NCBI GenBank assembly: GCA_030653975.1
Contig: JAURYH010000040.1
Span: 1 to 64,000 of the forward strand
DNA: 64,000 bases
Source of the DNA: Hydrogenophaga sp.
GTDB taxonomy: Bacteria > Pseudomonadota > Gammaproteobacteria > Burkholderiales > Burkholderiaceae_C
Reading direction: 5' to 3'
In this document: one piece after another, positions 16,950-49,218 of the stretch
How positions within the stretch are numbered: position 1 is the first letter of the stretch
Layout of the letters: every line of letters begins with the position of its first letter
Notes under the pieces: generated by a model
Seen by the model: only the letters and a program-made list of their open reading frames with translations
Database searches by the model: none
What the model was told of the DNA's origin: nothing
Program-made: the position numbers and the translations under genes

Positions 16950-17034
16950 GCCGACGTGGTGAAATTGGTAGACACGCTATCTTGAGGGGGTAGTGGCGAA
17001 AGCTGTGCGAGTTCGAGTCTCGCCGTCGGCACCA
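16950..17034 (+). tRNA. tRNA-Leu (GAG anticodon)
   Basis: The acceptor arm GCCGACG (16950-16956) pairs with CGTCGGC (17024-17030), followed by discriminator A and an encoded CCA. The anticodon stem CTATC/GGTAG encloses the loop TTGAGGG, giving GAG. A long variable arm (class II) and the T-loop GTTCGAGTC are present. It sits 50 bp upstream of nuoA. Confidence 0.97.
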
Positions 17035-36931: not shown

Positions 36932-37381
36932 TCAGGACGCCGGTCGCGAATTCCCCTGAATCCGCTTTTCGATCTCACCCACGTCGAGTGCCGTGAAATC
37001 GATGTCCTGAGCCAACTCGACCCGCTGGTCCACGTTGCGGCTGAGCGCTGCCTTCAGTTCGCCCAGCAGCGGACTGGAGACGTACAGCCACAGCTTGTCG
37101 AACTGGCCTGTCGACAGACCTTCGTCGAGCCGGGCGGCGATCTCGCGTGCGAACTGGTGCTGGGATTTGCGCTTCGGATCGGTGTGCGGCTCGAAGCGGG
37201 CGGCCGCCGTGCTGGTGTCGCTGCGCTCATGGCCCGGCCGATCACGCGCCAGTTCGCTGCGCGGGAGCCGGCCTTCCGGGTGGTGGATGGTTTCCAGCGC
37301 CTCCAGCGGTTCGCTGCGCGAGTTTCTGACAAAGATGCGGGCGATGGAGCTGTTGGCAACCAGAATCCATTGTTTCGTCAT
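36932..37381 (-). CDS. Host attachment family protein (AtsE-like)
   Basis: A 149-residue soluble protein. 'TKQWILVANSSIARIF' at the N-terminus, a central Asp/Arg-rich segment and 'FDKLWLYVSSPLLGELKAAL' are typical of the family named for attachment to host cells, whose biochemistry is unknown. The ATG follows TTGGAGCCGTC (GGAG, 6 nt). An FNR dyad at 37469-37482 with TACAGT correctly placed downstream suggests induction at low oxygen or by NO. Confidence 0.8.
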   Translation of the reverse strand: MTKQWILVANSSIARIFVRNSRSEPLEALETIHHPEGRLPRSELARDRPGHERSDTSTAAARFEPHTDPKRKSQHQFAREIAARLDEGLSTGQFDKLWLYVSSPLLGELKAALSRNVDQRVELAQDIDFTALDVGEIEKRIQGNSRPAS

Positions 37382-37468: not shown

Positions 37469-37482
37469 TTGAGCAGGCTCAA
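37469..37482 (-). promoter_or_regulatory. FNR-type box before the host-attachment-family gene
   Basis: TTGAGCAGGCTCAA is a perfect TTGA-N6-TCAA dyad. On the minus strand TACAGT (37442-37447 complement, 4/6 to TATAAT) lies at about -13 to -8 of a predicted start near 37434, 53 nt before the ATG. Confidence 0.7.
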
Positions 37483-37602
37483 TGCCGGCTCGCCAGACGC
37501 GGCTTCCACACCCGTTTCACCAGCGTTGGCTGCAGCTGCGTTGATCACCCGGCAGGCCCGGGTTCTTCAGGAAGCCGCTGCCAGGACCGGCACCTGGTGC
37601 GA

Positions 37603-38133
37603 TCACACCACCACGCGGGTCCAGTGCTCCTGGCGGGTTTCCGGCGCACCCGGCAGGCTGGGCGCTTTGCCCGGGTCGGCCTTCGGCGTGTGCATCGCGA
37701 GTTCGCGGTCCATGCCGTTGCGGATGATCGCTGCCAGTCCACCGACCTGCTCCGCGCAGGCTTCGATCACATCGTCCAGTGAAACGATGCCACTCAGGCG
37801 ATGCTCACCATCGGTCACCAGAAGGCGGCGCACGCCACTGTCCTGCATGGCGACAACCGCCTGGCCCAGACTGGCATTCTCGGCAATCAGCGTGAGGTCC
37901 ACGTGGGCCAGATCGCCCACTTCCACATCCAGCTCCAGCGGCGTTCGAGCCAGTGCGTCAACGACCAGATCGCGGTCGGTCACGATGCCGCACACCTGTT
38001 CGCCTCCGGCATCGGTGCAGGTGACGACCAGCATTCCCACATGGTGATCGCGCATCATGCGCGCGGCCTCCATGAGCGAGCACTGCGCGTCGATGGTGAC
38101 AATGTCCCGGTTGCAGATGGTGCTGACTTGCAT
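37603..38133 (-). CDS. Two-CBS-domain protein
   Basis: A 176-residue protein with two CBS motifs: the first around residues 7-60 ('MMRDHHVGMLVV', 'GIVTDRDLV') and the second around 75-130 ('AVVAMQDSGVRRLLVTD', 'GIVSLDDVI'). Paired CBS motifs bind adenine nucleotides and sense energy state. A 45-residue unstructured tail follows. The ATG has a strong AAGGAGG ribosome site. A weaker FNR-like sequence, TTGCGTTCAATCAA (38208-38221), lies upstream. Confidence 0.88.
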   Translation of the reverse strand: MQVSTICNRDIVTIDAQCSLMEAARMMRDHHVGMLVVTCTDAGGEQVCGIVTDRDLVVDALARTPLELDVEVGDLAHVDLTLIAENASLGQAVVAMQDSGVRRLLVTDGEHRLSGIVSLDDVIEACAEQVGGLAAIIRNGMDRELAMHTPKADPGKAPSLPGAPETRQEHWTRVVV

Positions 38134-38207
38134 GGGGCCCTCCTTGGTGAGCCGTTTTGATCGGAATGATCAGGCACTCCATCGTGCTCCTTTCGGCGGT
38201 TGTGAAA

Positions 38208-38221
38208 TTGCGTTCAATCAA
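38208..38221 (-). promoter_or_regulatory. Degenerate FNR-like box before the CBS-protein gene
   Basis: TTGCGTTCAATCAA matches TTGAT-N4-ATCAA at 8 of 10 positions; its centre predicts a start near 38173, 40 nt before the ATG. The -10 is poor. It overlaps the last codons of the small gene at 38218. A separate TGATC-N5-GATCA dyad lies at 38158-38172. Confidence 0.4.
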
Positions 38222-38415
38222 CGGATGGCGCTGGCAGGAAGCGTCACCAGACCGACCAGTACGCCCTGCGGTGTTGTGATCGGCAGTCTGCGAAACCCCT
38301 TGCGGCGCAAGGTGGACAGCAGGTCTTTGATCGAGTCTTCCTCCAGCGGCATGCTCCGCCCGGCCACCGTGACGATCCGGTTGCCGATGTCTGCGGCATT
38401 CAGGGGTTTGCGCAT
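38218..38415 (-). CDS. Single-CBS-motif mini protein
   Basis: 65 residues ending shortly after the second strand of one CBS motif ('GFRRLPITTPQGVLVGLVTL'). A clear GGAGAACAC ribosome site precedes ATG 38415, so it is probably translated. It could be a degraded copy of a two-domain CBS protein or a subunit that pairs with the CBS protein next door. I cannot tell which. Confidence 0.6.
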   Translation of the reverse strand: MRKPLNAADIGNRIVTVAGRSMPLEEDSIKDLLSTLRRKGFRRLPITTPQGVLVGLVTLPASAIR

Positions 38416-38690
38416 GGTGTTCTCCGGGTTGACATCGGGAAGCGGGTGGAAGAGGGGGGCATTGAAGGGCGGTCAGGCCCACGCAGTCCTGCGTGCCGGT
38501 GATCGTTCGCAGGTCTTCGGCCTTCACCAGATCCCGGCGATGGCAAAGCGCGTCGTGGCGGAAGCTGCCTTGCTCCAGCACCATGTAGAGATCCATCTCC
38601 GGCCAGTTGTGTGCCGATGGCGCGGTGCGGCCGTGACTGGCAGGTCGGTTGACGAATCCCTATTCATGCGTGGGCTGGCTGTCCAGCACC

Positions 38691-38733
38691 AGAAAAAAAG
38701 AAGGCCCGCCAACCCTGACGGGTGGCGGGCCTT
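38691..38733 (-). terminator. Intrinsic terminator of the predicted small RNA
   Basis: On the minus strand AAGGCCCGCC pairs with GGCGGGCCTT (perfect 10 bp, 38724-38733 with 38701-38710), followed by CTTTTTTTCT at 38700-38691. It also protects the downstream CBS genes from read-through. Confidence 0.9.
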
Positions 38734-38881
38734 GTGAAGGTCCCCGGCATCGCGTGTGACCGTCCTGCCGGTCTGAGGGTGCCTTCACCCCTTGTGGTGT
38801 CGGAGACACCACAACCTTTCCCTCTGAAGGGAAACCTCACCTCACCGCTGGTGAGCAGATTTGCATCACATCCCCATCGGC
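38691..38881 (-). ncRNA. Predicted FNR-controlled small RNA, about 190 nt
   Basis: From the FNR box at 38916-38929 the expected start is 38881. The -10 GACACT sits exactly at -12 to -7. The transcript would form successive perfect stems: 38841-38846/38850-38855 (6 bp), 38817-38822/38829-38834 (6), 38792-38801/38805-38814 (10), 38734-38740/38782-38788 (7) enclosing 38744-38749/38766-38771 (6), and a terminator stem 38701-38710/38724-38733 (10) followed by CTTTTTTTCT. No reading frame with homology is visible within. I do not recognise the family. Confidence 0.7.
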
Positions 38882-38915
38882 AGCTTCAGTGTCCAACGAC
38901 CGGGGATTGGGGTCA

Positions 38916-38929
38916 TTGAGCATGCTCAA
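38916..38929 (-). promoter_or_regulatory. FNR-type box of the small RNA promoter
   Basis: TTGAGCATGCTCAA is a fully symmetric FNR/ANR dyad. An A8 tract on the minus strand (38941-38948) lies just upstream and could act as an UP element. The -10 GACACT (minus strand, 38893-38888) is exactly positioned for class II activation. Confidence 0.8.
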
Positions 38930-38983
38930 TCCAGTCGCAGTTTTTTTTCCGCGCCGCGCATGGGACCACTGGCGTGGTTGCCA

Positions 38984-39832
38984 TCAGGCCGCGAGACTGC
39001 GAGAGGGTGCGTGCCTGCGCTGCGTGGGCGTGCGGTCGGCCGGTGTGCGGGTGCGCACAAGCACCGGTGCATCCATTGGCCGCCGTGTGCTGCGAGCGAA
39101 GGCGCCGAGTCGGTCCATGTCCAGGATTTCGACCTCGCGGACGCTCACCCGGATCAGATCCAGCGCCGAGAGGGTGGTGAAACTGCGACTGACGGTCTCG
39201 TGCGCCACGCCCAGCAGGCTGGATAACTCGCGCCGACCCATCCGCAGGAGAAAACGGAGGGGCGACTGGCCACAGTCCGCCATGCGTCTGGAATGCCGAA
39301 TCAGAAAGCGTGCCAGGCGCACCTCGGACGCGACCGCCGCCATGATGTCCACCAGTTCGCGGCTGCGCGCCAGGGTGATGCTTCCGGAGCGCTGCAGCAT
39401 CAGACCAAAGGCCGGGAGCACTTCACACAGGCGCGGTATGTCGCACCTCGGGATCACATAGACGGCGGACTCTTCCAGGGCGGAAATGGCCACCGGGTAA
39501 GACGCCATGCAAAGCGCGTCAAATCCCAGTACCTCGCTGCGCAGGGCAAAGGCCAGCACCTGCTCGTAGCCGTCCTCGTCAGTCCGGAAGACCTTGAAGG
39601 TGCCTGCGCACACGAAGAAGATGGCATTGGCCGGTGCTCCTTCGTGCACCAGGCGCTCGCCGGCGTGCACCTTGCGGAGGGTCAACGGTGTGCGCGCAGC
39701 GGTGCCCGAAGGATCGACGGGAACGCCGGACATCTGCAACAAATCGGCAAAGGTGGCCCCCACAGGCTTGGTGGGTATCGGACCACGCGGCGTTCGCTGG
39801 GTGGCGATCTGGATCGGGTCCGTGCTGTTCAT
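38984..39832 (-). CDS. FNR-like CRP-family regulator lacking the N-terminal Fe-S cysteines
   Basis: A 282-residue transcription factor. The sensor fold resembles FNR ('AGTFKVFRTDEDGYEQVLAF', 'LGFDAL'), and the winged helix has 'RRELSSLLGVAHETVSRSF', where E212, S215 and R216 match the FNR recognition residues for TTGA half-sites. The N-terminus (first 75 residues) has no cysteine, so the FNR-type 4Fe-4S switch is absent and its signal is unknown. A basic 30-residue C-terminal extension is unusual. ATG 39832 follows CAGGAG with ideal spacing; the frame extends 22 codons upstream. Terminology: FixK/ANR-like, not FNR sensu stricto. Confidence 0.85.
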   Translation of the reverse strand: MNSTDPIQIATQRTPRGPIPTKPVGATFADLLQMSGVPVDPSGTAARTPLTLRKVHAGERLVHEGAPANAIFFVCAGTFKVFRTDEDGYEQVLAFALRSEVLGFDALCMASYPVAISALEESAVYVIPRCDIPRLCEVLPAFGLMLQRSGSITLARSRELVDIMAAVASEVRLARFLIRHSRRMADCGQSPLRFLLRMGRRELSSLLGVAHETVSRSFTTLSALDLIRVSVREVEILDMDRLGAFARSTRRPMDAPVLVRTRTPADRTPTQRRHAPSRSLAA

Positions 39833-39895
39833 CGGGAGACTCCTGAAGGGGATTTTTGGCGCGCTCAGCAAACCCCCAGCATGCGGCAAGCCGCA

Positions 39896-39983
39896 CATCC
39901 CGGCTATCAGACTCGGTATTCAGATCAACCCGGAAACAGAGCCACTGGTCAGTGGTTCTTGACTGATACGGGATAGGAGTATT
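39896..39983. repeat. Duplicated upstream element, copy A
   Basis: The 42-nt core 39896-39937 matches 41487-41528 at 38 of 42 positions. A second block, 39965-39983 (GATACGGGATAGGAGTATT), matches 41555-41573 at nearly the same spacing. It lies 64-152 bp before the FNR-like regulator gene. The rest of the 331-bp gap (39833-40163) shows no gene I can support. Confidence 0.65.
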
Positions 39984-40163
39984 CCGACGGGCAACCACCG
40001 GGCGGTGTTGTCCTGACGCCAGGGCTGCTGCTGCAACATGCCCATGCCCCCCCGCAGATGGCGACGAAAGGGCAAGGAGATGAGCAACACCATGCGCGCC
40101 AAGGTGCTGGACCAGCCCGGTGCCCGCCTGTGAACGCCAACACGTTCTGAGTGGCCGCGTGCT

Positions 40164-40784
40164 TCAGGCCCTGAGCTGTTCGATCACCTCGTCGTCCTCC
40201 ACCTGGGGAAAGTGAAGGTAGAACTGGCCGACGGCCTGGAAGTCTTCGGGGGCGTGCAGGCAGACCACCTCGTCGGCCAGGGGACGGACCTTCTCCAGCG
40301 CTTCGGGCGACGACACGGGCACGGCGCAGACCAGCCGGGCCGGATGGCGCTGGCGCACGCTGTGCAGCGCGGCGATCATGGTCGCGCCGGTGGCCAGGCC
40401 GTCGTCCACCACGATCACCACGCGACCGGCCGGGTCGATGGGGGTGCGCAGCGGCGAATACATCGCACGCCGCGCATCGAGTGCCCGCAGCTGCTGGCGC
40501 TTTTCTTCGGCGATGTAGTCCGGATCGGCGCCGACCTCGGCCGCATAAGGCGCGATGGTGCTCCAGCCACTTTCGTCGATGGCGCCAATGGCCAGCTCGG
40601 GCTGGTACGGCGCGTGCAGCTTGCGCACCAGCACCACGTCGAAGTCGCCCTTGAGCAGACCGGCCAGGGTCTTGCCCATGGGCACGGCGCCACGGGGAAT
40701 GGCGAGCACCAGTGGCTTCTGGCTCCGGTAGGCGCCCAGGCGGGTCACCAGCTGGCGGGCGGCGTCTTCGCGGTCGTGGAACAT
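40164..40784 (-). CDS. Phosphoribosyltransferase, COG1926-like
   Basis: A 206-residue protein with the PRPP-binding loop 'VVIVVDDGLATGATM' near residue 118 and 'RGAVPMGKTLAG' near 40. Proteins of this kind occur beside, or fused to, dienelactone-hydrolase-like proteins; one such gene is at 43986. The substrate is unknown. ATG 40784 follows AAAGGACCCACC. It lies directly after the second phosphoribosyltransferase gene, 11 bp apart, so the two form an operon. Confidence 0.85.
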   Translation of the reverse strand: MFHDREDAARQLVTRLGAYRSQKPLVLAIPRGAVPMGKTLAGLLKGDFDVVLVRKLHAPYQPELAIGAIDESGWSTIAPYAAEVGADPDYIAEEKRQQLRALDARRAMYSPLRTPIDPAGRVVIVVDDGLATGATMIAALHSVRQRHPARLVCAVPVSSPEALEKVRPLADEVVCLHAPEDFQAVGQFYLHFPQVEDDEVIEQLRA

Positions 40785-40795
40785 GGTGGGTCCTT

Positions 40796-41371
40796 TCAAT
40801 CGGCCCGGCCTGCGGGCGCTGGCTGCAGCAACTGGATGCTGAAGTCGGGCTCGTAGGGCGGCACATGGCATTCGACGATGTCGGTGGGCGCGACCTCCAG
40901 CCGCAACCCCACCACGTCGGCCCGCAGCGGCAAGGTGGTCACGCAGCGGTCGGCCAGAACCACGAGGCGGACGGCCGCGGGCCTTTTGCGGGTCAGCCAG
41001 TCCACCACCTTCAGCGCCGAGTGACCGGTGTACAGCACATCGTCCACCACGAGCAGGGTGTGGTTTCGCAGGTCGAGCGCGGCGTGGTGCGGCGCTTCGG
41101 CGAACTGCGTGTCGGGGAACAGCAGCGTGAGGTCGTCGGCGTAGCGCTTGACCGACAGGTCCAGCCGCAGTGGTGGGGCCAGGCCATGGCGCTGCACCAT
41201 GCGCTCGGTCAGGCGGTCGGCCAGCGGCGCGCCCCGGCGCAGCACGCCCACCACCGCCACCGGGCCGTGGCCCTGCAGCAGCCCGGCCGCCTGCTGTGCC
41301 ATGCGGTCCATCACGGCGCCCAGGCTGGCGCTGTCGTAGAGACAGGTCCGGGTGCCTTGGGGTGCGTTCAT
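40796..41371 (-). CDS. PyrR-like phosphoribosyltransferase
   Basis: A 191-residue type I PRTase fold. The PRPP loop 'LLVVDDVLYTGHS' and the early 'VVGVLRRGAPLADRL' are characteristic of PyrR/uracil PRTase-like proteins. True PyrR regulates pyrimidine genes, but no pyrimidine gene is near, so a regulatory or salvage role is open. The start at 41371 lacks a clear ribosome site. It is the upstream gene of a two-gene PRTase operon, behind duplicated element B. Confidence 0.82.
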   Translation of the reverse strand: MNAPQGTRTCLYDSASLGAVMDRMAQQAAGLLQGHGPVAVVGVLRRGAPLADRLTERMVQRHGLAPPLRLDLSVKRYADDLTLLFPDTQFAEAPHHAALDLRNHTLLVVDDVLYTGHSALKVVDWLTRKRPAAVRLVVLADRCVTTLPLRADVVGLRLEVAPTDIVECHVPPYEPDFSIQLLQPAPAGRAD

Positions 41372-41486
41372 GGGTGTGTCCGCGGCGCTGCCATGGTGGC
41401 CATCGTTGGATCTGCGCAGTTCATCAGGATTTCCTCGGGTGTCTTGCTGGCAGGGACAATCACTTTTCAGGATGAGACAAAACGCC

Positions 41487-41573
41487 CATTCCGGCTATCG
41501 GACTCGGCATTCAGATGAACCCGGAAACGGTGGCATGGGTCGGGGAGTTTTTCCGATACCGAGTAAGAGTATT
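41487..41573. repeat. Duplicated upstream element, copy B
   Basis: The core 41487-41528 is 38/42 identical to 39896-39937, and the block 41555-41573 matches 39965-39983. It lies 116-202 bp before the minus-strand PRTase operon and 126 bp before the plus-strand kinase gene. In both copies the element faces the minus-strand gene in the same orientation. Confidence 0.65.
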
Positions 41574-41614
41574 CTGGAGTGCCGACTTGGACCTTCCCTG
41601 GTCTTTGGTTTGCA

Positions 41615-41676
41615 ATGACTTTGATCAATCCACCCGCAGACCAGAACCCCCAAACAAGGCGCGGTCCCAATATGAT
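41615..41676 (+). promoter_or_regulatory. FNR-like box and -10 of the sensor kinase promoter
   Basis: ATGACTTTGATCAA (41615-41628) differs from TTGAC-N4-ATCAA at one position. TATGAT at 41671-41676 (5/6) predicts a start at 41683, which puts the box centre at exactly -61.5, the class I position. The leader would be only 16 nt but includes AAGGAG. Confidence 0.55.
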
Positions 41677-41698
41677 GAAAATCTGAAGGAGATCCGGC

Positions 41699-43189
41699 AT
41701 GCACAACCCCTGTCTTCCCGAAGACCCCCTGGAGCTGGATCCTGTGATCCAGTCCGGTGCGATCCATGCGGCACTGGAAGGCATCGTCACCATCGATGAG
41801 GCGATGCACATCGTGATGATCAACCCGGCTGCGCAGCGCATGTTTGGCCGGCCGGCCGCGCAGGTGTTGGGCCAGGACCTGTCGGTCCTGATTCCGGGTG
41901 CCTTGCGCGAACTGCACACGGCGCATGTGCAGGCGTTCATGGCCTCTGGCGTGGTCGAACGCCCGATGCGCGCGCTGGGACCGCTGGCGGGCTTGCGCGC
42001 GGACGGCTCGGAGTTCCCGCTGGAGGCTGCCATCTGCCAGGTGGAAGCCTCCAGCAAGCTGGGTGGCCATCGCTACTTCACGGCGATGCTGCGCGACCTC
42101 AGCAACGAGCACAAGCTCGCGGCCCAGATCGACCAGATTAACCGCCGGATGCGCGCGCTGTTTGACCTGCTGCCCGTGGCGATCTGGATCACGGAAGGGG
42201 AATCGGTGGTCTATGCCAACAAGGCCTGTGCCCGGCTGTTTGGCGCGGCGCAGCGCGAAAGCCTGACCGGTCAGTCGATCTATGCGCTGCTGCACCCCAC
42301 GACCCACGAACTGGTTCGGGAAAAGGTGGCCCATGCACTGGCTTCTGAGGAGGAGGTGCTGGCGATGCACGGGAAGATCGCCCGGCGCGACGGCTCGTCC
42401 CGCGATGTCGAGATGGTGGTCGCGGCGCTGCCGGATCATTCGCGCACCCTGGTGCAGATCGTGATCTACGACATCACGAAACAGACGCATGAGCGGCGGG
42501 CGTTGCTGGAGTCGAAGCGCACCCTGCGGGAACTCGCCGCGAGCCTGGTGGACACGCGGGAAGAGGAGCGGCGGCGCATTGCCCGCGAGCTGCACGATGA
42601 GTTGGGCCAGCAGCTCACGGCCCTGAAGCTGGAGCTGTCGGCGCTGGAGGGCATCGAAACACCCTGCATCCCTTCGGCGCGCACGCAATCCATGATCCAG
42701 ATGGTGGACGACACGGTGGCCGCCACACGCCGGATTTCCATGGATTTGCGCCCGTTGATGCTGGACGACCTGGGCCTGAGTGCCGCCATCGAGTGGCTGG
42801 CCCAGGAAACCGAGCGACGGTCAGGGTTGCAGGTGACGCTGCGCTGCGACCCGCTGCCCGACCTGCTACCGCAGAAGGTCCTGACGGCGCTCTACCGCAT
42901 CGTGCAGGAGGCCCTGACCAACATCGTGCGCCACGCAAACGCCACCCGCGTGGTGATTGCCATGGCCCACACGGGGTCGTTCATCGAGCTCCGTGTCGAA
43001 GACAACGGCGCCGGGTTTCCCGACCAGCCGCAGCGGGTGCCCGGAAAATCGTTTGGCCTGATCGGCATCCGCGAGCGCGTTCTCATGCTCGGCGGGGAGC
43101 TGAGCCTGGGCAACCTGCCGGGGGGCGGCGCGAGCATGGTTGTGAAACTGCCGCTGTCCGGGGCCGACGATGCCCAGGGAGATTCCTGA
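41699..43189 (+). CDS. PAS-domain sensor histidine kinase, NarX/LuxR-system type
   Basis: A soluble kinase of 496 residues with no membrane helix. Two PAS domains (about 15-135 and 150-265), a HisKA_3 dimerisation domain with phospho-acceptor H299 in 'RRRIARELHDELGQQ', and a HATPase domain with 'VQEALTNIVRHANA' and 'VEDNGAGF'. PAS sensing plus the nearby FNR-like box points to a redox or oxygen cue, but heme ligands are not evident. AAGGAGATCCGGC precedes the ATG. Its stop overlaps the response-regulator start by one base. Confidence 0.93.
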   Translation: MHNPCLPEDPLELDPVIQSGAIHAALEGIVTIDEAMHIVMINPAAQRMFGRPAAQVLGQDLSVLIPGALRELHTAHVQAFMASGVVERPMRALGPLAGLRADGSEFPLEAAICQVEASSKLGGHRYFTAMLRDLSNEHKLAAQIDQINRRMRALFDLLPVAIWITEGESVVYANKACARLFGAAQRESLTGQSIYALLHPTTHELVREKVAHALASEEEVLAMHGKIARRDGSSRDVEMVVAALPDHSRTLVQIVIYDITKQTHERRALLESKRTLRELAASLVDTREEERRRIARELHDELGQQLTALKLELSALEGIETPCIPSARTQSMIQMVDDTVAATRRISMDLRPLMLDDLGLSAAIEWLAQETERRSGLQVTLRCDPLPDLLPQKVLTALYRIVQEALTNIVRHANATRVVIAMAHTGSFIELRVEDNGAGFPDQPQRVPGKSFGLIGIRERVLMLGGELSLGNLPGGGASMVVKLPLSGADDAQGDS

Positions 43190-43875
43190 TGAAAGAACCC
43201 TCGATGAACGTCTTGCTCAGCCTGCTGCTGGTTGACGACCACACGGTGGTTCGCGAAGGGCTCAGGCGGCTGATCGATCCGCAGGCCAACCAGTGGAGCA
43301 TCACCGAGGCCGGCACCGGCTTTCAGGCGCTCGAATGCCTGCGCCGCCAGCCCTTTGATCTCGCCATCGTCGACCTGTCCATGCCGGGCATGAGCGGGCT
43401 GGAACTGACGCGCCGCATCAAGAGCGAGTTTCCGTCGGTGGCGGTGCTGGTGCTCACGATGCACAGCGAGGAGCAGTACGCCATCCGTGCGCTGCAGGCC
43501 GGCGCCAATGGTTTTTTAACCAAAGACAGCGCCGCCACCGAACTGGTGGCCGCCGTGCGCAAGGTCGCTTCGGGCGGTGTGTTCCTCTCGGCCCAGCTGG
43601 CCGAACGGGTGGTGCAGCAACTCAACGGCCAAACCCCGGCGCCCGACATCCAGGCGCTGACGAACCGGGAGCTCGACATCCTGCAGCGCATCGTCAGCGG
43701 CCAGCGCCCGGTGGACATTGCCGATGCACTGCACCTGTCGATCAAGACCGTAAGCACGCACAAGAAGCGCATCCAGGAAAAGCTCAAGCTGGACAGCACG
43801 GCTGCCCTGATCCGTTTTGGTCTGGAACACCGGCTGGGCAACGAACTCATCGACCCTTCTGTCGACGACAATTGA
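43189..43875 (+). CDS. NarL/FixJ-family response regulator
   Basis: The partner of the kinase: 228 residues, receiver domain (about 10-125) with phospho-acceptor D62 in 'LAIVDLSMPG' and the conserved Lys in 'FLTKDSAATE'; LuxR-type HTH (about 155-215) with 'LTNRELDILQRIVSG' and 'SIKTVSTHKKRI'. ATG 43189 overlaps the kinase stop (TGATG) and GGGAG lies just upstream. Targets are unknown. Confidence 0.94.
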   Translation: MKEPSMNVLLSLLLVDDHTVVREGLRRLIDPQANQWSITEAGTGFQALECLRRQPFDLAIVDLSMPGMSGLELTRRIKSEFPSVAVLVLTMHSEEQYAIRALQAGANGFLTKDSAATELVAAVRKVASGGVFLSAQLAERVVQQLNGQTPAPDIQALTNRELDILQRIVSGQRPVDIADALHLSIKTVSTHKKRIQEKLKLDSTAALIRFGLEHRLGNELIDPSVDDN

Positions 43876-43985
43876 AACCCCGGGCGCCGGCTTGGAGCAT
43901 TCGACAGCTCTGAACCGTACCCGTGGCTGCCGGACTTGGGAAGCTGCGCCTTGCAGGGCGGCGCGGCAAGGGATGGCTTCACCGG

Positions 43986-44633
43986 TCAGGACCTGGCCGG
44001 CGCGCGCAGGTGCTTCAGGAACCAGTCGGCCGCGAGCGCGGCCACGCTCTCCAGCGCGCCGGGCTCTTCGAACAGGTGGGTGGCACCCGGCACCACTTCC
44101 AGGCGTTTGGCGCAGCGCAGCTGGCGCAGCGCCCGCTGGTTGAGTTCCAGCACTTCATCGTCGTCGCCGCCCACGATCAGCAGGGTTGGCGCCTGCACCA
44201 GAGGCAGGTGGCCCTGGGCGAGATCGGGGCGCCCGCCGCGGGAGACCACCGCGGCGATGTCCTGGGGCCGATCCGCCGCGGCCACCAGCGCGGCCGCCGC
44301 ACCCGTGCTGGCGCCGAAAAGGCACACTGGCAAACCCGAGATGTCCGCGCGTTGCCTGGCCCACCGCAAGGCCTCCTGCACACGCTGGCCCAGCAGCGCG
44401 ATGTCGAACACCTTGCGCCGATCCTGCGCTTCATCCGGCGTCAGCAGGTCGAACAGCAAGGTGGCCAGGCCCTGCCGTTGCAGTGCGCGGGCCACCCAGC
44501 GGTTGCGCTCGCTCAGGCGGCTGCTGCCGCTGCCGTGCGCGAACAGCACCAGACCCCGGGCCTGGGCCGGCACCGCCAGATCGCCCTGCAGCGAGGACTC
44601 CTGGAGAACCACGGCCTCGTTGAAAAGGGTCAT
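43986..44633 (-). CDS. Alpha/beta hydrolase, dienelactone-hydrolase-like
   Basis: A 215-residue hydrolase with nucleophile S109 in 'FGASTGAAA', acid in 'VGGDDDEVLE' and H186 in 'PGATHLFEE', a full Ser-Asp-His set, and the oxyanion-side 'FAHGSGSSRLS'. Substrate unknown. It starts one base after the stop of the GroEL-derived gene (TGA-C-ATG), so both share a transcript driven by the FNR box at 44914. Proteins like this accompany COG1926 PRTases, as here. Confidence 0.85.
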   Translation of the reverse strand: MTLFNEAVVLQESSLQGDLAVPAQARGLVLFAHGSGSSRLSERNRWVARALQRQGLATLLFDLLTPDEAQDRRKVFDIALLGQRVQEALRWARQRADISGLPVCLFGASTGAAAALVAAADRPQDIAAVVSRGGRPDLAQGHLPLVQAPTLLIVGGDDDEVLELNQRALRQLRCAKRLEVVPGATHLFEEPGALESVAALAADWFLKHLRAPARS

Positions 44634-44634
44634 G

Positions 44635-44832
44635 TCAGAGATCCGGTATGCCGGCCCCGGGCATGCCCATGTCCTGCTGGACCTTGGGCGCCGGCGCGTT
44701 GTCGATCATGCAGCCGGTGGTCAGCACCAGGCGGGTGACCCTGGCCGGGTCCATCACGCCACCGCCACCAGGAACGATGCCGTGCTCGATAGCCGCGCGC
44801 GTGGCGCGCTGCGCGTCCTGTTTGGCGCTCAT
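44635..44832 (-). pseudogene. GroEL-derived mini-ORF with internal deletions
   Basis: 65 residues that collapse the C-terminal part of GroEL. 'QRATRAAIEHGIVPGGGG' corresponds to the GroEL 'ATRAAVEEGIVPGGG' segment, then jumps to 'MDPARVTR' (GroEL 'LDPTKVTR'), then to 'LVLTTGCMIDNAP' (GroEL 'MLTTECMVTDLP') and a short Met/Gly tail. About 80 and 10 residues are missing between blocks, yet the frame stays open and lies behind an FNR box. It cannot fold as a chaperonin subunit. The start ATG lacks a clear ribosome site. Confidence 0.75.
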
Positions 44833-44876
44833 GTGAAAGTCGCATTGTGAAACCAGCGGGTGGAGTGATGTGACAG

Positions 44877-44927
44877 CAATGTGCACATTGTTTCGCTGCG
44901 TGGTACCCCGGAATTGAGTGCGCTCAA
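44877..44927 (-). promoter_or_regulatory. FNR-type box and palindrome before the GroEL-fragment/hydrolase operon
   Basis: TTGAGTGCGCTCAA (44914-44927) is a perfect FNR dyad. The complement of 44887-44892 (AACAAT, 4/6) gives a -10 at about -13 to -8 of a start near 44879. A separate perfect 14-bp palindrome, CAATGTGCACATTG (44877-44890), overlaps that -10 and the start site and could be a repressor site. Confidence 0.7.
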
Positions 44928-45021
44928 CGACCATGCATTTGGCCATCGGATCCGTCTGGTGGTGGGGGACAGCTTCCGGCGAATGGGGATGGCGTTTGAG
45001 GTCACGCCCCGCATGCATCTC

Positions 45022-45303
45022 TCAGTGTTTGATCTGCTCAATGCCGCTGTCGGTACCTCCACCGCCGTTCGCCTGCTGAACCTGTGCCTCGGCCGTCAGC
45101 CAGTCGTCGAGCTCGTACCCGGGTTCACCACCGCGGGCTTCGTAGCAGGCGTAGGCGGCTTCGCGGATGGCCTGCTCGCGATCAAAGGGCGCAGCGGGTG
45201 TCGGGGTCGCCTCAGCGCCTTCCTCCGGATGGGGCGCCATGGCCGTCTGCATGGCCTTCACCGCACGGGCCGAGGTCTTGGGCGTTGCATGTTGTCTTGC
45301 CAT
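45022..45303 (-). CDS. DUF2934 family small protein
   Basis: 93 residues. The C-terminal half 'REQAIREAAYACYEARGGEPGY' followed by 'ELDDWLTAE' is the DUF2934 signature; the N-terminal half is basic and Ala/Pro-rich. Function unknown; such genes often lie among stress genes. ATG 45303 follows GGAGACTTGAA. A near-perfect FNR dyad with a correctly spaced -10 lies upstream. Confidence 0.85.
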   Translation of the reverse strand: MARQHATPKTSARAVKAMQTAMAPHPEEGAEATPTPAAPFDREQAIREAAYACYEARGGEPGYELDDWLTAEAQVQQANGGGGTDSGIEQIKH

Positions 45304-45399
45304 TTCAAGTCTCCAGTGAAAAAAGGTGGTTGGACGTGCAGGGCCTTGCGGTGCCATGCCTGCACCGGCTGAACATACGTTGGTGGTTTCGCCCGTTTG

Positions 45400-45413
45400 T
45401 TGCGTCGGCTCAA
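45400..45413 (-). promoter_or_regulatory. FNR-like box before the DUF2934 gene
   Basis: TTGCGTCGGCTCAA differs from the symmetric TTGAG-N4-CTCAA at one position. On the minus strand TATGTT (complement of 45372-45377, 4/6) falls exactly at -12 to -7 of a start at 45365. Confidence 0.55.
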
Positions 45414-45541
45414 TGTGTTGGCGTCTGCCGGTCGCTCAGCCGATGCGCGGTCATGGTTCGCCAGGCCGTGCGCCAGCCAACGAGGGACAGCCGCAGGCCA
45501 AGGCCGCTTTCACGGATGGAGGGGGGGTGCCGGTGTTTTTG

Positions 45542-45555
45542 TTGAGCACACGCAA
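45542..45555 (+). promoter_or_regulatory. FNR-like box before the Hsp20 gene
   Basis: TTGAGCACACGCAA differs from TTGAG-N4-CTCAA at one position. AATATT (45579-45584, 4/6) lies about where the -10 is expected for a start near 45590. This and the box at 45400 are the only structure I can support in the 343-bp gap 45304-45646. Confidence 0.5.
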
Positions 45556-45646
45556 TGCCCCGGCGCTTCCACGCGTCCAATATTTCCCGCCTGAAGTAGC
45601 TCCCTGAACACGTTTCAGTTTTCGCAACCCTTTGAAGGAGCTTTTT

Positions 45647-46072
45647 ATGAACGAACTCAAGGTCCGCGACCTCTTTGCTGCCGATCCCTTTGAAGATGCC
45701 TTCCGCAATTTCCTGCGCCCCTGGGTGTCCCGAGGCGCCGAGTCGGCACCCGATATCAAGGTCGAACTGGTTGAAAGCAACGGCGACTACAAGCTCAAGG
45801 CGGAGATTCCGGGTGTGCGCAAGGAAGACATCCAGATCGACATCGACGACAACAAGGTCAGCATCTCGGCCGAGGTGAAGAAAGAAAGCGAAGAGAAGAA
45901 GGACGACCGCGTCATCCGCTCGGAGCGGCAATACGGTTATGCCAGTCGCAGCCTCTGGCTGGACAAACCGGTGGACCAGTCGAAGTCCGTTGCCAAGTAC
46001 GAAAACGGTGTGCTCGAGTTGACGTTGCCCAAGAAGGCCACGTCCACCGGCAAGCGACTCACGATTTCCTGA
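45647..46072 (+). CDS. Hsp20/alpha-crystallin small heat shock protein
   Basis: An ATP-independent holdase of 141 residues. The alpha-crystallin domain (about 40-130) includes 'KLKAEIPGVRKEDIQIDI' and the C-terminal 'YENGVLELTLPKK', with a short tail containing the I-x-I-type 'LTIS'. AAGGAG is spaced six nt from ATG 45647. Expression is probably FNR-linked as well as stress-linked. Confidence 0.95.
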   Translation: MNELKVRDLFAADPFEDAFRNFLRPWVSRGAESAPDIKVELVESNGDYKLKAEIPGVRKEDIQIDIDDNKVSISAEVKKESEEKKDDRVIRSERQYGYASRSLWLDKPVDQSKSVAKYENGVLELTLPKKATSTGKRLTIS

Positions 46073-46123
46073 GCACCCAGGACGGCGGGGGGCCCGGACC
46101 TCGCGCTGGCTGCTGGCCTGCGC

Positions 46124-47974
<1,851 letters not shown>

Positions 47975-48094
47975 CCGATCGCCTTTCCGCCTGGTACCCA
48001 AATGAAGCGCTGTCCCATGCCCGGCCATGCCGGTGGTCAGCCGCTTCATGGTAGCCAGACAGAGCCCGTTGCGGGCGATTTTCATGGGACGGGA

Positions 48095-48108
48095 TTGAGT
48101 GGACTCAA
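48095..48108. promoter_or_regulatory. FNR-type box between ftsH and the E1 operon
   Basis: TTGAGTGGACTCAA is a perfect TTGA-N6-TCAA dyad between two divergent transcripts. It predicts starts near 48060 (minus, ftsH) and 48143 (plus, E1 operon). TAAGCT (48130-48135, 3/6) suits the plus direction; the minus -10 is weak. Confidence 0.65.
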
Positions 48109-48210
48109 TGCACAGGGCCGAATTGTCAATAAGCTGTGCTGTGGCGCTGTCTTGCGCCCGGTCTGGCAGCCGTATGCCCAGCCGTTCGTTTTTTCGAACA
48201 GGAGAGAACC

Positions 48211-49218
48211 ATTCAAGCAGGCAAAGAGGCAGAACTGTGGATGTACGAAAAAATGCTGGAGATACGGCACTTCGAGGAGACCATGGCCACGGTCTATCTG
48301 GAAGGCAAGCTGCCGCCGCATATCCAGAAAGGGCTGGCGTTTGACATCGGCGCAGGCCCGGTGCCGGGCGAGATGCACCTCGCCGCGGGGCAGGAGCCGG
48401 TGGCGGTGGGCGTGTGCGCGCACCTGAAGCAGACCGACACGGTGGTGGGCACGCACCGGCCGCACCATTTTGCGATCGCCAAGGGTGTGCCGCTCGGCCG
48501 CATGGCGGCCGAGATGTTCGGCAAGGCCACCGGGCTGGGCAAGGGCAAGGGGGGTCACATGCACCTGTTCGATCCGGTGAGCCGGTTCAGTTGCAGCGGC
48601 ATCATCGGTGCCAGCCTGCCGCCGGCTTGCGGCGCCGCGCTGGCGGCGAAGAAGCTGGGCAAGGACTGGGTGGCGGTGGCCTTTTTCGGTGAAGGCGCGG
48701 CCAACCAGGGCGCGGTGCACGAGTCGCTCAACCTCGCGGCCTTGTGGAAACTGCCGGTCATTTTTGTCTGCGAGGACAACAAGTGGGCGATCTCGGTGCC
48801 CAAGTCCAGCGCCACGTCCATCGAATGGGTGGCCGACCGTGCCGCGGGCTATGGCATGCCGGGCATCAAGGTCGCGACCAACGACGCCATGGCGGTGTAC
48901 GAGGTGGCCGGGCCGGCCATTGCGCGCGCCCGCCGGGGCGATGGCCCCAGCCTGATCGAGGTCAAGACCGACCGCTACCTGGGCCACTTCCAGGGTGACC
49001 CGGAGGTCTACCGTCCGAAAGACGAGGTGGCCAACCTGCGCAAGAACGATCCGATCCCGCGGATGGCCAGCCGTCTGAAGCTGCAGGGCTACATGAACGA
49101 CGCCGAGGAGGCCCACCTGGTGGCGCTCGCCCGGCGGCGGGTGGCCGATGCCTTCGAGTTCGCGCGCAACAGCCCCGACCCCGAACCGCAGGATGCCTTG
49201 CAGGACGTCTTTGTCTGA
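48211..49218 (+). CDS. Pyruvate/acetoin dehydrogenase E1 component, alpha subunit
   Basis: A thiamine-diphosphate-dependent decarboxylase subunit. 'GGHMHLFD', 'IIGASLPPACGAALAAKKLG' (split), the ThDP motif 'GEGAANQGAVHESLNLAALW' and the phosphorylation-loop region 'DRYLGHFQGDPE' are present. The first ATG (48241) gives 325 aa and has only a weak site. An ATT at 48211 directly after AGGAGAGAACC restores the usual N-terminal residues ('KEAELWMYEKML'); I give that start, with doubt. Followed by E1 beta after 35 bp. Confidence 0.88.
   Translation: MQAGKEAELWMYEKMLEIRHFEETMATVYLEGKLPPHIQKGLAFDIGAGPVPGEMHLAAGQEPVAVGVCAHLKQTDTVVGTHRPHHFAIAKGVPLGRMAAEMFGKATGLGKGKGGHMHLFDPVSRFSCSGIIGASLPPACGAALAAKKLGKDWVAVAFFGEGAANQGAVHESLNLAALWKLPVIFVCEDNKWAISVPKSSATSIEWVADRAAGYGMPGIKVATNDAMAVYEVAGPAIARARRGDGPSLIEVKTDRYLGHFQGDPEVYRPKDEVANLRKNDPIPRMASRLKLQGYMNDAEEAHLVALARRRVADAFEFARNSPDPEPQDALQDVFV

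Follow-up and report, generated by a model that had tools for sequence, protein, structure and literature searches.

A candidate pseudoknotted small-RNA family of Burkholderiales with a FixK-type box and a stress-island neighbourhood

The window analysed here, a stretch of 64,000 nt, contains at 38881..38691 on the minus strand what looks, from its sequence, like a stand-alone small-RNA gene, complete with promoter and terminator. Comparison of genomes revealed that it belongs to a family of structured RNAs in the Burkholderiales that is apparently undescribed. We consider it probable that this gene, its fold, a FixLJ/FixK-like activation at low oxygen and co-production with a stress island are parts of a single explanation. 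According to this explanation, a FixL-like haem kinase would sense low oxygen and signal to a FixJ-like regulator, and the pair would raise the level of a local FixK-like protein of the Crp/FNR family. The latter would bind a dyad at -41.5 and bring about class II activation of an RNA of about 190 nt, whose fold would consist of a pair of hairpins, a long-range helix with a pseudoknot, and the terminator. This RNA would be produced together with the stress-island proteins Hsp20, CBS, BON, USP, Cpn60, FtsH and phosphoribosyltransferases. A compact pseudoknotted RNA family would become a further candidate component of how bacteria respond to low oxygen. Since the likely switch, the sensor and the neighbours lie within about 11 kb in the window's genome, the whole chain can be tested together.

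The predicted gene and its promoter

A dyad of the Crp/FNR/FixK type, TTGAGCATGCTCAA, is located at 38929..38916 on the minus strand. The -10 hexamer GACACT (38893..38888) begins 29 nt from the centre of this dyad and 36 nt from the start of the box. With the G at 38881 as the predicted +1, the dyad is centred at -41.5, and the predicted transcript of 191 nt extends to 38691. It ends in a terminator (38733..38701) with a 10-bp stem, in which 38733-38724 pair with 38710-38701, followed by seven Ts (38699-38693). All of these elements had been pointed out in a first-pass annotation made from the letters of the window, and each of them is present, as is an A8 tract just upstream of the box; by eye, this tract is absent in the relatives L002, L013 and L015. 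The annotation had also seen no protein-like frame, and inspection by eye detected no conserved frame in the family. A small protein was considered and rejected on the same kind of inspection: the AUG or GUG before the core motif GAAGR is not conserved, since the window group has GUG there but L021, L026, L027, L028 and L031 have other codons, and some frames stop immediately.

The pattern TTGAG-N4-CTCAA occurs at four places in the window, compared with 0.01 expected by chance. The 191-nt RNA has a predicted folding energy of -93.6 kcal/mol, whereas shuffled sequences reach -72.9 ± 4.7 kcal/mol (z = -4.39), and none of 200 shuffles equalled it. Furthermore, the dyad, the spacing, the RNA and the terminator all recur in relatives. 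The rarity of the dyad, the z-score of the fold and the recurrence of the whole unit indicate that dyad and fold are more than chance.

The promoter was then compared among homologues. Among 11 RNAs from the window's genus, the distance from the start of the box to ACA[C/T]TG is 37 nt in ten cases and 36 nt in one. A FixK2-type box, TTG[AC]-N6-[TG]CAA, which corresponds to the consensus TTGA/C-N6-T/GCAA given in PMC6710368 and would mark members of a FixLJ-FixK regulon, starts 60-120 nt upstream of the core in 27 of the 29 RNAs aligned below. At random control positions in the same loci, it was found in 215 of 9,614 cases (2.2%). The two exceptions are L048, which has no box, and L021, whose box is imperfect. 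Three offsets were allowed for the -10 hexamer, and the best one places it 35-37 nt downstream of the start of the box. In most relatives the hexamer is CACACT or TAnnnT, and the seventh base after it, the predicted +1, is a G in 27 of 28 homologues. The conserved offset and the conserved G therefore yield the predicted start, and relative to it the dyad lies at about -41.5, in class II geometry. Several relatives, L027 among them, have weak U-tracts.

The RNA family and its fold

A DNA search located the RNA at 11 places in nine of 67 genomes of the genus. Two of these nine genomes contain two copies each, which have diverged and lie in different places (L004 and L007 in one genome, L013 and L017 in the other). 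A covariance model built from the 11 RNAs was run on 399 genomes of the family, and 22 genomes matched at E 0.01: three were genus genomes known already, 11 were new, and eight with only weak matches were set aside. All 11 new matches are full-length, come from other genera and score 56-94 bits. When named genomes were scanned with a pattern, at least eight records were obtained, from Burkholderiales MAGs, two Rubrivivax, one Leptothrix and one beta proteobacterium; one record duplicates an earlier locus, with the same upstream sequence, and was dropped. Our alignment (A7) contains 29 distinct full-length Burkholderiales RNAs. A 30th homologue, detected by BLAST of plasmids in a stretch of Variovorax boronicumulans NZ_CP138497.1 without a listed gene, was kept out of the alignment and of model building; it scored 109 bits and has TTGCGCTGGATCAA upstream.

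Plasmids were searched again with the L042 RNA as query, and nothing was found. Covariance scans of the whole order and class, which have low sensitivity, returned only the same two genus genomes (2/399 and 2/229), and these counts are lower bounds, as scoring covered up to 7 or 13 candidates in each genome. In a second pattern scan, at least six of 399 genomes matched, three of them at the known RNA loci L051, L053 and L055; the pattern scans missed the window's own clade, which has an extra base before CCUUC, and their counts are lower bounds as well. Weak covariance matches of 24-32 bits were excluded from the family. None of the six that were checked has the box; three others, L036, L039 and L041, match over the terminator only. 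Two further weak matches are a remnant in genome G073 and L097, which looked unrelated by eye. The G073 remnant (L096, 1501-1652) is a truncated copy of the RNA, in which the box is joined directly to GGGACCTTCACC, the 3' end of the helix P3 described below, and the terminator.

No family in Rfam 15 matches the window RNA at the gathering score (the window's only match is a tRNA at 16950-17031), in agreement with the first-pass annotation, which had recognised no known relative. Rfam matches in ten relative loci are all below the gathering score, and many of them cover the terminator. The one with the lowest E value, the Burkholderia sRNA Bp2_287 (RF02424), lies over the terminator end and reaches 23.6-27.1 bits, where the gathering score is 70; this is a resemblance of terminators. 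Searches of the openly licensed literature likewise turned up no description of such an sRNA; the apparent novelty of the family is judged from these two sources.

To assess the fold, we counted compensatory changes in A7. With the pseudoknot described below included and two competing inner pairs omitted, 39 of 46 pairs have changed on both sides (198 such cells), and 95.4% of the cells are paired. Slid controls did not exceed 17 pairs, 45 cells and 52.4% paired. A5 and A7 had been fitted to the nested helices, but A7 had not been fitted to the pseudoknot. An earlier alignment of 22 sequences agrees, with both-side changes in 36 of 43 pairs. Compensatory changes beyond controls are what defines a structured noncoding RNA, and the first-pass annotation had named their absence in relatives as one of two observations that would overturn its proposal. 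As the case is computational throughout, one could think of a conserved DNA element or of chance folding in place of an expressed RNA, but the compensatory changes together with the nearly fixed promoter geometry make this extremely improbable.

The conserved core, as delimited by the covariance models R1/R2, spans 38840..38699 on the minus strand. Its first hairpin, H1 (38834..38817), pairs 38834-38828 with 38823-38817. Hairpin H2 (38814..38792) has 10 bp, 38814-38805 with 38801-38792, and all eight modelled pairs covary. The comparison further revealed a long-range helix P3 (38788..38734), GUGAAGG/CCUUCAC, in which 38788-38782 pair with 38740-38734, and which encloses P4 (38771-38767 with 38748-38744). 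The annotation had described a series of perfect stems along the transcript: the complementary segments are indeed there, but they cannot all form simultaneously. When the window sequence was folded alone, the minimum-free-energy structure contained H1, H2, an inner 6-bp stem and the terminator, and contained neither the 7-bp stem P3 nor the pseudoknot. It pairs 38840-38835 with 38739-38734 and replaces P3 by a local hairpin at 38791-38776. P3 is thus supported by the comparison of homologues, and not by the window's own minimum-energy fold. A local hairpin of the form RAUG-AAGR-CAYC, used in that minimum-energy fold, was tried as an alternative. With 86.2% of cells paired and both-side changes in two pairs, it has less support than either P3 or the pseudoknot; in the folding pathway it may be an intermediate.

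The pseudoknot had been missed in the first-pass annotation. We scanned A7 for every gap-free 5-bp helix and kept those with more than 92% of cells paired and at least two covarying pairs. Seventeen passed, 16 of which overlap known stems, and the sole extra helix joins UGAGG (columns 2-6; 38839..38835 in the window, minus strand) to CCUCA (columns 77-81; 38778..38774). It is paired in 97.9% of the cells and has both-side changes in three pairs and five cells, with the compensated versions UGGGG/CCCCA, CGGGG/CCCCG and UGAGA/UCUCA. Among 500 shuffles, this number of cells was never reached and this number of pairs once, while the number of pair types, reached in 240, is not above shuffles. Two rival pairings compete with it. 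GUGAGG, which includes the same 5' arm, can pair with CCUUCAC, as in the minimum-energy fold of the window (95.9% paired), and the CC of CCUCA can pair with a GG inside P3, these being the two pairs omitted above (93.2% of cells paired). Because neither of them shows any both-side change, we prefer the pseudoknot on comparative grounds; switching between the forms is possible.

The local regulator and its probable sites

Beside the RNA, at 38984..39898 on the minus strand, lies a gene for a Crp/FNR-family regulator in which the FNR-type cysteine pattern is missing. Nearby, on the plus strand, are the genes for a PAS-PAS-HisKA_3 sensor kinase (41699..43189) and a response regulator with a GerE/LuxR-type output domain of the FixJ/NarL type (43204..43875). 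The first PAS domain of the kinase matches the haem PAS domain of FixL (1d06, E 7.4e-13) and also DosP haem sensors. A histidine is aligned in the haem region, and we take it to be the haem ligand. In the window, therefore, a kinase with a FixL haem PAS and a FixJ-type regulator, as would be required for a FixLJ-FixK regulon, are found nearby. Among solved structures, FNR is nearest to the local regulator (80 bits), followed by FixK2 (44 bits). We call the protein FixK-like because the FNR cysteines are missing and its neighbours resemble FixLJ.

The FixLJ-FixK cascade has been described in rhizobia and in the Burkholderia cepacia complex (PMC5234846, PMC6710368), and fixK is induced at low oxygen through FixLJ (PMC5234846). 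The window resembles this system in that a FixL-like haem PAS kinase, a FixJ-type regulator and a Crp/FNR-family protein are co-located, and its boxes fit the consensus of PMC6710368. It differs in the local form of the box, TTGAG-N4-CTCAA, and in the structured RNA under it, as the available parts of PMC5234846 and PMC6710368 name no sRNA target.

Three further TTGAG-N4-CTCAA dyads were found in the window. The second (37469..37482) is upstream of a Host_attach gene (36932-37381), the third (44914..44927) is about 80 bp upstream of an ORF at 44635-44832 (minus strand), and the fourth (48095..48108) lies between divergent genes for FtsH (46124-48085, minus strand) and an E1 dehydrogenase (48136-49218, plus strand). 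In the 4.09-Mb assembly, all four dyads are within 10.6 kb, at window positions 37469-48108. A reversed control pattern occurs three times in the genome, so the count of four is ordinary and only the clustering is informative. The same segment contains eight of the window's 13 FixK2-type sites, and a site of this type, TTGAGCACACGCAA (45542..45555, plus strand), is located upstream of an Hsp20 gene (45647-46072). Judging from the sites, the segment 37469-48108 is likely to be a private regulon, compact and adjacent to the protein that probably controls it.

FnrS, AniS and PhrS are sRNAs controlled by FNR, and the window RNA shares with them a short intergenic gene, a Crp/FNR dyad in front and an intrinsic terminator. 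Unlike them, it has no Rfam match at the gathering score, its family has a pseudoknotted core and no conserved seed, and its activator is probably not FNR. The first-pass annotation had assigned the dyad to FNR and had also proposed control by NO, a proposal that receives no support from the present analysis. As regards FNR, the TTGA...TCAA core is kept in the dyad, a true FNR (with the cysteines CxxC...C) is encoded in the genome, and ATCAA half sites are found at several of the distant RNAs. However, the genome's perfect TTGAG dyads all lie in the island, beside the cysteine-less FNR-family gene, while the nine canonical FNR dyads of the genome, TTGAT-N4-ATCAA, all lie on contigs other than the window's. 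One of the nine is beside the true FNR gene: it lies just upstream of it (L107, reverse strand), which suggests that this gene is autoregulated.

The presence of the local regulator was surveyed in 39 of the 67 genus genomes, picked mainly for completeness, with a cut-off of E below 1e-40. An orthologue was found in all nine RNA-bearing genomes and in three of 30 others (Fisher p 1e-6, a value that ignores relatedness). These three include G071 and G074, in which the RNA was not found, and G073, which has the remnant only. Among RNA-bearing genomes of other genera, the regulator orthologue was detected in six of 11, the match in G097 having two stops, and no close orthologue was found in the other five. 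The genome of L023 has no close orthologue, and the dyad in front of its RNA is a perfect FNR dyad, TTGATCTATATCAA. FNR or another family member may act where the close orthologue is missing or broken, and we take this distribution to mean that a single RNA can come under different proteins of the Crp/FNR family. For the window, the clustering of the dyads and the co-occurrence of regulator and RNA make a local FixLJ-FixK-like cascade the likelier controller. Activation by the global [4Fe-4S] FNR, which would make the RNA a functional counterpart of FnrS, appears unlikely.

Possible mode of action and stress-island neighbourhood

Antisense pairing is a common mode of oxygen-controlled sRNAs. 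The RNA could be a conventional trans-acting sRNA, in which an exposed segment, either an apical loop or a CCUCA released from the pseudoknot, pairs with mRNA leaders. The terminator and the conserved promoter fit this, and CCUC, read directly, complements the Shine-Dalgarno-like GAGG. In addition, a rise of Hfq in a fixLJ mutant has led to the suggestion that sRNAs modulate the fix regulon (PMC5234846). However, the core alignment of the 29 RNAs shows no conserved single-stranded seed: at a cut-off of 85% identity, unpaired runs are never longer than two columns, and those that reach it are GG, CA, GA, GG, C and G. The first-pass annotation had proposed the 16-nt apical loop at 38750-38765 as a source of targets, for which conservation gives no support. 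Moreover, CCUCA changes together with its internal partner UGAGG, as if it were held internally. We regard a conventional antisense sRNA as possible but doubtful.

As the conserved unpaired runs do not exceed two bases and CCUCA covaries with UGAGG, action through the fold, by binding of a protein or complex, is most compatible with the alignment when compared with a conserved antisense seed. Conservation leaves room for species-specific antisense targets alongside. Our tentative proposal, which may hold, is that the RNA is the RNA arm of a FixLJ-FixK-like stress regulon in a low-oxygen persistence island, and that when oxygen is lacking its pseudoknotted shape binds a protein, a ligand or some large complex, and not mRNAs. 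If the RNA does act by shape, this would extend the role of oxygen-controlled RNAs beyond antisense pairing. A CsrA sponge was considered and discarded, as the GGA motifs are, by eye, not kept in the window group.

We also considered a cis-acting leader, an attenuator or riboswitch that would control the gene behind it. At L003, L004, L005, L007 and L017, a BON-type gene (by Pfam in L007) follows on the same strand about 40 nt after the stem, and at L002 a CBS gene lies downstream. However, there is no fixed co-directional downstream gene. The gene in this position varies, and it is convergent at L113, L117 and L118, as is the next annotated gene in V. boronicumulans. The RNA is therefore not the leader of one gene, and a leader function of this kind is very improbable.

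The RNA is linked to a recurrent set of stress genes. In a protein marker search of 27 other RNA loci (stretches of 6-18 kb), 21 had at least one island marker and 20 had at least two, compared with 0 of 20 controls (16.5 kb each, 11 of the same genomes). The marker set comprised CBS, Hsp20, BON, USP, Cpn60, FtsH, phosphoribosyltransferases, Host_attach and an abhydrolase. The markers came from the window, except that Cpn60, BON, one CBS and USP were taken from RNA loci themselves (L120, L123, L127/L002); when L120, L123 and L127 were omitted, the count was 18 of 24 loci, which are not mutually independent. Within 6 kb of the V. boronicumulans RNA, there are also annotated genes for Hsp20, USP, BON and host attachment. 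The linkage to Hsp20, CBS, BON, USP and chaperonin genes offers a handle on a possible anoxic survival of the hosts.

A comparable arrangement is the low-oxygen-activated (lxa) locus of B. cenocepacia, for which six USPs are mentioned; there, the CRP protein BCAM0049 is a potential oxygen-sensing regulator, and its B. dolosa homologue is FixK under FixLJ (PMC6127331). The lxa locus resembles the window's island in its universal stress proteins and in having a FixK homologue as potential regulator, where the window has a FixK-like protein. As a difference, the main text of PMC6127331 never uses the term 'small RNA'. Within the island, a cpn60 remnant at 44635-44832 (minus strand) had been suggested by a chaperonin-like tail and was rejected, as this ORF has no Pfam match. 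At 38218-38415, the window contains an ORF of 65 aa that is CBS-like (CBS by Pfam) and, by eye, resembles an internally shortened form of the CBS gene that is found intact behind the RNA at L002.
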